Assembly (NCBI GenBank): GCA_021432635.1
Contig: MU270035.1
Span: forward strand, 310,001-374,000
Source of the DNA: Thozetella sp. PMI_491
Taxonomy: Eukaryota > Ascomycota > Sordariomycetes > Chaetosphaeriales > Chaetosphaeriaceae
DNA length: 64,000 bases
Direction: 5' to 3'
In this document: positions 1 through 5,534 of the stretch, one piece after another
Position numbering within the stretch: position 1 is the stretch's first letter
How the letters are laid out: each line of letters starts with the position of its first letter
Made by a program: the position numbers and the translations under genes
The notes under the pieces: model-generated
The model's database searches: none
What the model was told of the DNA's origin: nothing
Seen by the model: only the letters and a program-made list of their open reading frames with translations

Positions 1-186
1 CTGTGAGACCTCTGCGGAGGATCATGGCTCATGCATTCCCGCCATGTCGGCTTAAATAGCCATCATGGCCTGCTGCCTATGTGGTTGCGGGCTGTCCTCC
101 CAACAGAATTCGCTCAGAATTCGCCTTGAACCAGCCCAGAACTCAGAACATCACTCGACCTGCCGGCCTCTCTGCCCGCCTGAAGA

Positions 187-1341
187 ATGAATTGGTGGCC
201 AGTAATCGAGTTCATCGATGCCCTCACCTGGTGTACGGTTCACACTGAAGCCCCGGAGTCGTATGTTTGCCCTATCTACAAGCTCGTCCTCAGCGAGGAG
301 TCCTATGAGGGAATATGCACCGCCACGCCACTCAGCTTCGCTCCCGGCCTGGAGGACGTCGTCAATGCCTCGTCCCCCCCCAGCATCGAGTTTTTCTCTC
401 GCCTCCCTGCTCTGCCTGCTAGTGTGTGGGCGATATATGCCCTCCTGCTAGAAAAACCCGATGCTGAGCCTAGGCTCTACATTGGCTCTGGCACTAATGC
501 CCAGAGTGGCGCGGCGGCCCGGTTTCAAGACTACGACAAGCTCAAGCATCTTCCTCGCTTCGTTCAGCAAGCTATCGACTCAGGCTTCACCATCACCAGC
601 CGTGGCCCCCTATGTTGGGCTCCTATCCCGCCCCAAGAGTTGATTCCTTCCGCCAGAGTTCGCTTCTTCGCCCTGGAGGCCGCCCTATGCTTTCTCTTCT
701 ATGCTGGTTTCGAAACCAAGCTAGATGCATTCTGGACTGTTTTCCTGCCGTGGACACGCGATACCGTGAGCTGGCGACCCCTATGCAGCCATACACCACT
801 CATGGAGCGCCCGCATGGCGCTGATGATGCCACCATGACACCTGAGCAGCTCAAGCATTATGCTGCAGAGCGCAAGCGACGCACCAAGGAGCTCATGGCC
901 GTGAACTCCAAACGTGCTGAGGATAGGGAGCGTGCCCAAGACCTCAACGCCTACCTAGCCCGCAAACGTGCCGAGAAATACGATTGGGATCAGAGAAACA
1001 AGGATCGTGTTCACGATACCGCCGCCGGTGTCAGAGCCCGTGCTATCGCTTCTAAGCGATTCACGTGCACGACTTGCGACATGTCCCTGCAGTCCATAAC
1101 GGCACTCAACAAACATTTCAACACCAAGAGCCATCACGAGGCTCTGCGGCTCGCCGCAGGCGGGGAGGCCAAGCCAGTATCAGCTGCTACTATACGGTCC
1201 CGAAAGTTTGCCGCTGCTAGCAAGAAGAACATGCGTTTCCATTGTTCTCCATGCGACAGGTCGTTCAACATCAAGGGCCACCTGGACAAGCACCGCACCA
1301 CCAAGAAACATCTTCAGAAAATCGCCGAAGCCGGCGCATAG
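187..1341 (+). CDS. GIY-YIG-like and C2H2 zinc finger protein
   Basis: Intronless frame of 384 codons from an ATG. The N-terminal half contains a GIY-YIG-like signature: AIYALLLEK followed by LYIGSGT (about residues 82-103), then an Arg-containing segment ARFQDYD and a downstream LEAAL segment (about 165) where GIY-YIG folds carry their glutamate. A charged, coiled-coil-like stretch rich in Arg/Lys (about 220-280) follows. Two C2H2 fingers end the protein, starting CTTC at about 294 and CSPC at about 353, each with C-x2-C-x12-H-x5-H spacing. The family is found in filamentous fungi; a nuclease or nucleic-acid-binding role is inference from the fold, and I do not know its substrate. The stop is 62 nt before the splice acceptor of the atp1 exon, so the gene may lie inside an atp1 intron. 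A decayed relative lies at 3164-3480 on the other strand. Confidence 0.75.
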   Translation: MNWWPVIEFIDALTWCTVHTEAPESYVCPIYKLVLSEESYEGICTATPLSFAPGLEDVVNASSPPSIEFFSRLPALPASVWAIYALLLEKPDAEPRLYIGSGTNAQSGAAARFQDYDKLKHLPRFVQQAIDSGFTITSRGPLCWAPIPPQELIPSARVRFFALEAALCFLFYAGFETKLDAFWTVFLPWTRDTVSWRPLCSHTPLMERPHGADDATMTPEQLKHYAAERKRRTKELMAVNSKRAEDRERAQDLNAYLARKRAEKYDWDQRNKDRVHDTAAGVRARAIASKRFTCTTCDMSLQSITALNKHFNTKSHHEALRLAAGGEAKPVSAATIRSRKFAAASKKNMRFHCSPCDRSFNIKGHLDKHRTTKKHLQKIAEAGA

Positions 1342-1403
1342 CCTCTGATAGTGCACGCATCCATCTTGGTATCAATTGCTAACCCAAATTCTTAACTTGT
1401 TAG

Positions 1404-2283
1404 GCGCGTCAATTGCTGAGTGGTTCCGCGATTCTGGGCGCCATGCCCTTGTCGTCTACGACGATCTGTCCAAGCAGGCCGTGGCCTACCGTCAGATGTC
1501 CCTCCTTCTCCGTCGTCCCCCCGGACGTGAGGCTTACCCTGGTGATGTCTTCTACCTGCACTCTCGTCTCCTCGAGCGTGCCGCCAAGATGAACAACAAG
1601 CTCGGCGGTGGCTCCATGACTGCCCTGCCCGTCATTGAGACCCAGGGTGGTGATGTGTCTGCCTACATTCCCACCAACGTCATTTCCATCACCGACGGTC
1701 AGATCTTCTTGGAGTCTGAGCTGTTCTACAAGGGTATCCGACCGGCCATCAACGTCGGTCTGTCTGTGTCTCGCGTCGGTTCCGCTGCCCAGCTTAAGGC
1801 CATGAAGCAGGTCGCTGGTTCGCTCAAGCTTTTCTTGGCCCAGTACCGTGAGGTCGCTGCCTTCGCCCAGTTCGGTTCCGATCTTGATGCTGCCACCAAG
1901 CAGACCCTCAATCGTGGTGAACGCGTAAGTGCTTCTCTCCAGGCCCTGTTATGTCAGGGGCAGCGGATGCAAAATGATTTGTTGCGCGTGATTAGATCGC
2001 TAACTGGGTTATGCTACAGTTGACCGAGCTCCTCAAGCAGAAGCAGTACTCTCCCATGGCCGTCAACGAGATGGTTCCCCTTATCTTCGCCGGTGTCAAT
2101 GGCTACCTCGACACCGTCCCTGTTGCTAAGATCCTCCAGTGGGAGGCCGACTTCTTGGCTCACCTCAAGACCAACGAGACTGAGCTCCTTGCCACCATTG
2201 ACAAGGAGGGTGCCATCAGCAAGGACCTTGAGGCCAAGCTCAAGGATGTCATCCAGAACTTCACCAAGGGCTTCCTCGGCTAA
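1404..2283 (+). CDS. atp1: ATP synthase subunit alpha, mitochondrial (C-terminal exons only)
   Basis: Two exons are visible, 1404-1924 and 2019/2020-2283, split by an intron of about 95 nt (GTAAGT donor, CGCTAACT branch, CTACAG acceptor; the exon resumes at 2020). The product begins at the conserved [12 protein letters not shown] segment and runs through [19 protein letters not shown], the [11 protein letters not shown] segment and the C-terminal helical domain to a TAA. This is roughly the last half of the F1 alpha subunit, which forms the catalytic hexamer with beta in the mitochondrial matrix. The Walker A part and the targeting peptide are absent. The first base follows CTTAACTTGTTAG, a good branch and acceptor, so the 5' exons should lie beyond the left edge unless this is a partial copy. 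The intervening 1.4 kb holds the zinc-finger gene. Confidence 0.88.
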
Positions 2284-2877: not shown

Positions 2878-3163
2878 CACCAAGGGATGGTATACTTGTA
2901 AGGCATATCATCTTGTACAGAGGTAGAGACAGAAGTACCCATACCTTAACACATTATAAACCCTTCTGAAATATTTATCGCAGGCTAATTTAGTCAGGGT
3001 GTTTCTATCTACCAGGCAATCGCGTTATACAGAGCGCGCTATTCATACTGTAGGCACTCAATAATATACGCCCATTCGACGGTGTCGCGTGTCCAGGGCA
3101 AGTGAACCGTCCAGAATGATAGAGGTTAACAAAATTGAGGTCAAAACGATTGCTTGAAGTATC

Positions 3164-3480
3164 TCAAGCTATGGCCCGACTCTTGGTCTTCAGGTGCATA
3201 TCGAGATGGCCCTTGACACCGAAGTTGTGAAGACGGACAGAGCAATGGAATCGCATGCTCTCCTGCTGGCGGCGGCAAATTTCCGGGACCGCATAGTCTC
3301 AAGAGAAGCTGTCTTGGCCTCTCCGCCTGCGGCGAACCGCAGCCTCTCGTGATGAGCCTTAGTTTCGAGATGTTTCCTGAGTGCCATCACGGAGCCCAGG
3401 GAGAATTCGCATTTGTCGCAGTAGAATCGCTTAGAACCTAGAGTATGAGCCCGGACACCAGCAGCTTGTGCCAACTGCAC
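3164..3480 (-). pseudogene. Decayed C2H2 zinc finger relative of the 187-1341 gene
   Basis: On the minus strand the sequence encodes AAGVRAHTLGSKRFYCDKC and an intact first finger with C-x2-C-x12-H-x5-H spacing, then RLRFAAGGEAKTAS and MRSRKFAAAS. Each segment matches the C-terminal part of the protein at 187-1341. After AAAS the frame shifts; a neighbouring frame continues with MRFHCSV and GVKGHLDMH to a stop at 3164. In that second finger the second Cys and the last His are lost. In-frame stops lie just upstream of 3480, and the GIY-YIG part is not visible. It is a truncated, frameshifted relic, oriented opposite to the intact gene. Confidence 0.8.
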
Positions 3481-4207: not shown

Positions 4208-5534
4208 ATGACTGCGGAAACTGCTTCCCCTGCTGACATGTCTCCGACTACGAAGGACATCCTCGGGCAGGTCCGCCGGATGGTGCCTCCCATGCTCGAA
4301 AAATTCCATAAAGGTGCGCGCGAACAGCCAGCAACCCCGCCGACGATACCGAGGAGCTCTTAGACATCCTGACGGCCTCCACGAGGGAACGAAAAGGCTG
4401 ATTCGATACAAATAGGTCAAATGGGGCGTGTGGCAGTCATCGGTGGCAGCGAAGACTATACTGGTGCACCGTACTTCTCCGCCATGGCGAGCGCCAGGTT
4501 AGGTTGCGATATGGTGCGCCTATTCCCTACACCTGTAGCCTCGCGGAGCCCGTATGCACATCTGCGGCTCCTCGCGAACTATAGAATTGCAGCTAACGGA
4601 ACCTGCTCTAGTCCCACGTTATATGCACTCCCACTGCCGCCGGCGTGATCAAGACTTATTCCCCGAACCTCATGGTCCATCCCCTCATGCGTTCGTCTCC
4701 CACCTTCTTCGCCGCATCTTTGACGGGCTCATCTGCCGATACCGACCCAAGCACCGTCGCAAAGTCCATCATCGCGCTGCTCCCTCGACTCCACGTTCTC
4801 GTCATCGGCCCTGGGCTTGGTCGCGATCCCTTGATGCAGGACACCGTGGCTCGTGTAATCCGTGCGGCGCGAGAGCAAGGTATGCCGATAGTACTCGACG
4901 CGGATGCCCTCCTTCTGGTGCAAAAAGATCCTAGTATTGTGAAAGGCTATGCGCGTGCCGTGCTGACGCCAAACGTGGTCGAGTTCGGGCGATTGACCAA
5001 GGCGCTGGGCATCGACGAATTGGGGGAAGACAACGACAAAGGAGGCGAGACGAGGAGGGTTGAGGCACTCGCCAATGCATTGGGTGGCGTGACTATCATC
5101 GAGAAGGGAGCAAAAGACCATATCAGCAACGGGAAGTCAACTATGGTTGTGGACCTCCTGGGCGGACGGAAGCGTAGTGGCGGCCAGGGAGACACCCTCA
5201 CTGGATGTATTGCGACGTTCCTAGGCTGGCGGAAGGCATATCTAGACGGGATATGGGAGCATGACGGGAAGCTAGGTGAAGATGAGACTATTACCCTGGC
5301 CGTGTTTGGAGGGAGCGCCGTTACTAGGGTGAGTGTTCTGTCCTTCGTGCCTTGCTAGGGCGGCCATGAGTGCCGTGGGACGACTGACAAGCCATCGCGT
5401 CGCAGGAGTGTTCGCGTCTCGCGTTTGCCAAGAAAGGCCGGAGCCTCCAGGCTAGCGATCTGACCGACGAGGTTTACACGGCCTACACTAATCTCTTTGG
5501 GGAGGACGACGAGCCGGAGGCATCGAAGCTTTGA
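4208..5534 (+). CDS. ATP-dependent (S)-NAD(P)H-hydrate dehydratase
   Basis: Four exons (4208-4313, 4416-4513, 4612-5328, 5406-5534) give 349 residues; every intron has GT..AG ends and total exon length is in frame. The enzyme repairs hydrated NADH/NADPH (NADHX, NADPHX) using ATP, the eukaryotic CARKD/YjeF C-terminal domain activity. Signatures seen are [20 protein letters not shown] (ribokinase-like start), [32 protein letters not shown] and the [10 protein letters not shown] motif with the catalytic-type Asp. The chosen ATG precedes [20 protein letters not shown], which is conserved at the N-terminus of fungal members. There is no operon-like context, and the next gene to the right is 5 kb away. 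Confidence 0.93.

Follow-up and report, generated by a model that had tools for sequence, protein, structure and literature searches.

GIY-YIG introns are well known from fungal mitochondria. In the phage T4 enzyme I-TevI, encoded by the td group I intron, a linker and a DNA-binding part come after the nuclease domain, and the target falls within conserved codons of a gene for an enzyme, as would the targets of the nested genes described below. In the VMA1 intein and HO lineage of yeasts, a homing element occupies a block of conserved codons in a gene for an F/V-type ATPase subunit, and HO has zinc fingers; this element is removed as protein, uses a LAGLIDADG nuclease and occupies a site that differs from those in atp1 and atp2. 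Introners are mobile spliceosomal introns that occur as many similar copies at many sites. A further intron type, the shintron of Mirusviricota, was described in 2025: 334 endonuclease genes, 132 of them GIY-YIG, lie inside spliceosomal introns, with a target-gene preference that places 64.1% of shintrons in virion morphogenesis genes, and introners are mentioned as well (PMC12768974). In Ustilago maydis, UMAG_11064 is a nuclear GIY-YIG homing endonuclease remnant of mitochondrial origin, which is reported to have a damaged active site and to be inserted in a helicase gene that it truncates (PMC7593156). A Fusarium GIY-YIG gene is assigned to an unplaced supercontig (PMC4511438), and the main text of a survey of the GIY-YIG superfamily contains none of the terms fungi, zinc finger or spliceosomal (PMC1564403). 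Among the listed titles and abstract openings of open-access journal articles, we found no example of a cellular spliceosomal homing intron.

Here we analyse a 64,000-nucleotide stretch of the Thozetella sp. PMI_491 genome (the window; G000:C21:310001-374000), drawn from a 72.3 Mb assembly of 157 contigs that all own-genome searches cover. Positions without a contig name are those of the window. The oversized intron at its left edge, in the gene for the F1 alpha subunit of ATP synthase (atp1), and a related intron in the F1 beta gene (atp2) are likely to be, or to descend recently from, spliceosomal homing introns.

The initial annotation had apparently located a GIY-YIG/zinc-finger gene inside an intron of nuclear atp1, on the condition that the 5' exons lie to the left of the window. 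These exons, together with a GTTGGT donor, are present directly left of position 1, and the last two exons lie within the window (Table 1). Removal of GT...AG introns in silico yields a complete F1 alpha chain of 551 residues from seven exons, with an uninterrupted reading frame; 12 splice models with small border differences were open, and the chosen one reads as normal alpha sequence. Intron 5 measures 1,523 nt, as against 62-212 nt for the remaining five atp1 introns, and the remaining nine introns of atp1 and atp2 taken together span the same 62-212 nt. As the annotation had it, no atp1 exon occurs before position 1404, this part of the window lying wholly inside intron 5. In the chosen model the intron reads GTTGGT...TTAG; its donor looks weak, and an alternative donor six bases downstream would add two residues inside a conserved block. 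The proposed CTAAC branch-site motif and AG acceptor lead directly into the exon that continues atp1, and the best PDB matches of this exon include entries that we take to be yeast ATP synthase.

Table 1. Features of the atp1 locus and its surroundings; positions are those of the window unless a contig or locus is named.
Feature	Position	Strand	Basis or remark
atp1 exons	L009 3517-3588, 3801-3955, 4104-4160, 4232-4352, 4415-4880, 6404-6924, 7020-7283		splice model
atp1 intron 5, 1,523 nt	G000:C21:309881-311403; window part 1..1403, 120 nt further left	+	splice model
Nested ORF P0001, 384 aa	187..1341	+	intact ORF; full-length homologue in atp2 intron
GIY-YIG-like domain, aa 78-175	418..711	+	AIY (Y84), YIG (Y98), R112, Y116, E164
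C2H2 finger 1, aa 292-316	1060..1134	+	top-scoring stretch for zf-C2H2_jaz and zf-met, each of which passes the Pfam cut-off
C2H2 finger 2, aa 351-375	1237..1311	+	C353, C356, H369, H375 kept in both copies
CTAAC branch-site-like motif, atp1 intron 5	1379..1383	+	sequence
Acceptor AG, atp1 intron 5	1402..1403	+	sequence, splice model
atp1 exon 6	1404..1924	+	F1 alpha chains matched in PDB
atp1 exon 7 including stop codon	2020..2283	+	sequence, splice model
Decayed, rearranged family fragment, 3' of atp1	3072..3465	-	tblastn; both finger regions and WTRDTV piece out of order

Intron 5 carries an intact ORF of 384 codons (P0001) on the sense strand, which bears out the description of a complete gene within an intron of more than 1.4 kb. 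The ORF begins 306 nt past the donor and stops 62 nt ahead of the acceptor. The stop-free stretch comprises 385 codons, whereas the longest seen in any of six frames when the intron was shuffled 2,000 times by single nucleotides is 336 (mean 134); homology to a second ORF, described below, is stronger evidence for a real gene than this length. An in-frame stop lies just 5' of the P0001 start codon (181-183), and the host frame meets a stop soon beyond the donor in atp1 and at the donor in atp2; the nested ORF is thus not fused to a host exon. We infer that it would be expressed from an intron-internal transcript start or by translation of unspliced RNA. The 306 nt that precede the ORF match nothing in the genome except themselves.

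An arrangement of the same kind is found in atp2, on contig C7, which encodes a complete F1 beta chain of 518 residues once GT...AG introns are removed in silico. Intron 5 of this gene, between L010 positions 3120 and 4508, is 1,387 nt long versus 70-94 nt for the other atp2 introns, so that in atp1 and atp2 alike the ORF-bearing intron is the sole long one. It holds a full-length sense-strand homologue of P0001, P0002, with 142 of 373 positions identical (38%); the first likely ATG lies 153 nt past the donor and the ORF ends 76 nt ahead of the acceptor, with CTAAC again near the end of the intron. Both introns have GT-AG ends, and their removal in silico restores the host frame in both genes. 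Outside the ORFs, the 3'-terminal 40 nt of these introns show no more likeness than is seen between unrelated introns (score 6, with unrelated intron pairs reaching 12).

These observations bear on the alternatives that had been raised for the atp1 locus. A PF00006 search of the genome scored 11 candidates and gave eight exon-level matches, which by reading of the sequences belong to atp1, atp2, VMA1 and VMA2, one gene each; atp1 is therefore neither duplicated nor truncated. A partial duplication of atp1 is accordingly excluded in this assembly, which has one complete atp1, no second complete copy elsewhere, and the upstream exons on the same contig. An N gap 1.3 kb downstream of the intron (2673-2805) indicates that the area is not flawless, but the exon borders are clean and the same arrangement recurs in atp2 on another contig, so that misassembly would need independent events on C21 and C7 at matching codons; we consider an assembly artefact or a partial atp1 duplication to be almost certainly the wrong explanation. 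A nested host gene as a one-off event fails to explain the homologous ORF-bearing intron at the matching codon of atp2. The suggestion that survives best is that of a nuclear counterpart to homing introns among spliceosomal introns, which the homologous intron at the homologous atp2 codon favours.

We then examined the predicted proteins. P0001 comprises an N-terminal region, a GIY-YIG-like domain, a charged linker and two C2H2 fingers. In GIY-YIG enzymes the catalytic roles fall to two tyrosines, an arginine of helix 1 and a glutamate of the last helix. The GIY and YIG tyrosines, the arginine and the glutamate are present in the nested ORFs in superfamily order, and W-x-IY, LY[IL]GSGT, AR-x3-Y and ALEA are kept at corresponding positions of P0001 and P0002. 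Alignment of the active-site Tyr, Arg and Glu had been put forward as a check on the initial annotation, and Y84, Y98, R112 and E164, along with Y116 (P0001 numbering), are invariant in both copies. The I-TevI set, which we take to be Y6, Y17, R27 and E75, has the same order, and a tyrosine four residues past the arginine is the UvrC form. The motif set arose in 0 of 200,000 shuffles of each protein, an approximate count for a pattern chosen post hoc, with gap characters among those shuffled for P0001.

A model of the GIY-YIG-like domain built from the two sequences has the element order b-b-a-a-b-a, as in GIY-YIG, at low confidence (mean pLDDT 52.8). Searched with Foldseek against BFVD, it gave 1,109 matches at E <= 10 and none at E <= 0.001; rank 1 is a GIY-YIG protein and rank 2 an intron-associated endonuclease (probabilities 0.97 and 0.96; E 0.014 and 0.042), with low TM-scores of 0.27-0.43. 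Against the PDB, none of the 308 matches reached E <= 0.001; I-TevI catalytic-domain chains take ranks 3 and 5 (E 0.74 and 1.1), mixed with ribosomal or virion proteins, which take ranks 1, 2 and 4. Profile methods spoke against the GIY-YIG assignment: Pfam returned no PF01541 match for either domain even at E <= 10; hhalign against 11 phage I-TevI-type domains assigned probabilities of about 1% and 0.5%, with the YIG segment as the short aligned part; and in PHROGs both P0001 and P0002 had no more than weak matches, the best at E 0.0059, of which none bears the name of a nuclease. Run against PDB sequences, the domain profile returned three antibody-type matches, which we dismissed as chance. 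Genome-wide, PF01541 scored two candidates and reported one gene, distinct from the nested ORFs and presumably SLX1. On the strength of the motif residues and the low-confidence fold, we regard membership of the nested ORF domain in the GIY-YIG superfamily as very probable.

At Pfam cut-offs, the only families that match P0001 are C2H2 families (zf-C2H2_jaz and zf-met), which count two C2H2 stretches, the first being the better. For the second (aa 351-378), phmmer gave a weak match to a zinc finger of known structure (E 0.0085). A full-length fold model of low confidence from the two sequences (mean pLDDT 49.4) places a long charged helix at aa 219-288.

Intron positions were compared between the two genes. 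In an alignment of the alpha and beta chains, the six atp1 introns fall at columns 24, 75, 94, 142, 302 and 480 (0-based) and the five atp2 introns at columns 3, 74, 110, 124 and 302. Column 302 alone is common to both sets, and it corresponds to the two ORF-bearing introns, at a homologous Gly codon inside an unambiguously aligned block that includes LTGLTLAEYFRD; the near-match at 74/75 falls in the poorly aligned N-terminal part. The spliced phases at the Gly codon are 1 in alpha and 2 in beta. Because intron borders can slide by one base, the DNA breakpoints in atp1 and atp2 may coincide, and short border slides are common in the remaining introns of the two genes too. Alpha and beta are ancient paralogues that split long before fungi, so inheritance of the intron through duplication of the host gene is not credible, and a site-directed insertion, or one strongly favoured at the shared Gly codon, is likely. 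Both full copies found (2/2) sit at this codon in genes for F1 subunits, a preference in target gene or target site.

Our expectation was that atp1 and atp2 would be most similar as DNA at the insertion site. This is not so: the two sites share 26 of 56 bases, and the pair is absent from the 12 best-matching atp1/atp2 window pairs at each of four widths. VMA1 (L011, G000:C6, 2000-4000, minus strand) has a TG-I-T-L-A-E-Y-F-R-D block without an intron, an unoccupied homologous site that shares 28/56 and 31/56 bases with the atp1 and atp2 sites, respectively. A degenerate beta-type site pattern, which is too narrow for VMA1 and cannot span an intron, had no match in the genome. Given the low likeness of the sites as DNA, and a VMA1 site that is equally alike, the data do not point to a single enzyme that now cuts both; they would fit better with an old jump after which each enzyme adapted to its own site, or with parallel invasion, than with ongoing exchange between atp1 and atp2.

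The modest DNA likeness of the sites (26/56) could also be taken to mean that two nested-gene insertions took place separately, in introns whose codons match by coincidence or that occupy a proto-splice site of the preferred kind, and introns can arise in parallel at favoured sites. This reading must account for a single shared column in roughly 500 aligned codons that belongs to exactly the two ORF-bearing introns, and for homologous ORFs that are complete nowhere else found in the genome; we hold it to be quite improbable.

We next consider how large the family is and what has become of it. P0001 searched against its own genome gave three matches at E <= 1e-3 from five candidates, namely the two full copies and a fragment, and P0002 gave five at E <= 1 from seven candidates; the P0002 matches on C118 (E 0.21) and C82 (E 0.54) are too weak and were taken as chance. 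The copy count is a lower bound, since the own-genome search scores the best candidates only. The fragment, 3' of atp1, consists of tblastn pieces at 3465-3259 (64%), 3265-3182 (54%) and 3119-3072 (81% over 16 aa), with 74% DNA identity over 228 bp. It is nearer to the atp1 ORF (64% across 69 codons; dN 0.29, dS 0.51) than to that of atp2 (39% across aa 292-365 of P0002). A third copy was probably once present and has since decayed. Between atp1 and this fragment, positions 2673-2880 hold an N run (the assembly gap noted above) that abuts a short GGGCCAGTA-type tandem repeat. Frames of the next gene after atp1 occupy 4211-5358 on the plus strand and resemble what we take to be ATP- or ADP-dependent NAD(P)H-hydrate dehydratase.

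Between P0001 and P0002, differences at the three codon positions are 0.52, 0.43 and 0.66 (dN 0.72, dS not computable), which is the pattern expected of a protein kept by selection, that is, of past protein-level constraint. Two ORFs that stay intact and constrained at such an old divergence (38% amino acid identity), in only two full copies found, would also suit domesticated intron-nested host genes, whether once a mobile element or simply a nucleic-acid-binding protein of the ordinary C2H2 kind, kept for regulation of ATP synthase through co-location and with mobility over; the jaz type of the fingers, which Pfam labels double-stranded-RNA-binding, points the same way. Domestication alone, however, leaves the same-codon insertion in two ancient paralogues unexplained, neither copy has lost the nuclease motif residues, and the decayed third fragment suggests turnover. 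We consider it an unlikely account of the locus. An introner was rejected as well: only two full copies were found, they are 38% identical in amino acids and occupy one site type, and the 5' non-coding part is unique.

Searches for relatives used a few short peptide patterns and found none in viral contigs, whether with the two-protein alignment or with each protein, and none in genome contigs with the alignment; P0002 had no relative among phages by tblastn. These searches say little about fungi, since the collections hold prokaryotes and viruses and the short peptide patterns were few. HNH_3 and LAGLIDADG_1 had no match in the Thozetella genome, which, together with the single PF01541 match, suggests that the mitochondrial genome is perhaps absent from the assembly.

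How, then, do the two introns compare with the systems described at the outset? Rfam at E <= 1 gave no group I or II intron match in either intron region; each region has one below-cut-off match (E 0.32 and 0.31), neither of which is an intron family, and a group I intron with a GIY-YIG gene was rejected on the same search. Like I-TevI, the nested ORFs have the GIY...YxG...R...E motif order. They differ from it in lying within a spliceosomal rather than a self-splicing intron, in lacking significant sequence similarity to it, in having R-x3-Y where I-TevI has R-x3-H, and in carrying C2H2 fingers. With UMAG_11064 they share the placement of a gene, here probably of the GIY-YIG type, in a fungal nuclear genome and differ in their location within spliceosomal introns (PMC7593156). 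The likeness to mirusvirus shintrons comprises a GT-AG intron with a nested gene, here probably of the GIY-YIG class, a gene preference and no group I or II signature (PMC12768974). Unlike the shintrons so described, which reside in virus genomes, the present introns are hosted by cellular nuclear ATP synthase genes, and their proteins end in C2H2 fingers, escape the Pfam GIY-YIG model and occupy homologous codons of two paralogues. Within the literature searched, the atp1/atp2 pair is most likely a cellular, C2H2-bearing and paired version of an intron type reported only from giant viruses.

The homing-intron reading suggests a mechanism. The sequence itself shows the gene models, the intact ORFs, the insertion codon and motif residues common to both copies, past constraint on the protein and no further full copy among the matches; that the introns are spliced, that the ORFs are expressed and their proteins cut DNA, that the introns home and in which direction they passed between the genes are inferences. 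The ordinary spliceosome would remove each intron by way of its GT-AG ends and CTAAC motif, and as a result ATP synthase would remain unharmed and the host gene would tolerate the insert. Each intron would be the carrier of a free-standing GIY-YIG-type endonuclease gene with its own start codon. By family resemblance, the linker, with its long charged helix, and the C2H2 fingers would bind DNA around the conserved TG-x-x-[IL]-AE-[WY]-FRD codons of an allele that lacks the intron, cleavage of that allele at the target would fall to the GIY-YIG-like domain, and repair of the break would copy the intron into the cut allele. One lineage probably took the homologous codon of both F1 genes, either by an old paralogue-to-paralogue transfer or by parallel invasion.

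More broadly, we lean towards the view that cellular spliceosomal introns are mobile, now or until recently, by endonuclease homing, with a GIY-YIG/C2H2 element at the same codon of both F1-ATPase genes as a host-side counterpart of the shintrons, possibly their source or their recipient. The gain of spliceosomal introns and their selfish spread in cells are a long-standing question, and a pair of insertions that sit at matching codons in paralogues of ancient origin offers unusually clear evidence of site choice. If this view is true, homing of spliceosomal introns would become directly testable in a eukaryote, in two core genes, at a defined site and with candidate enzymes small enough to purify.
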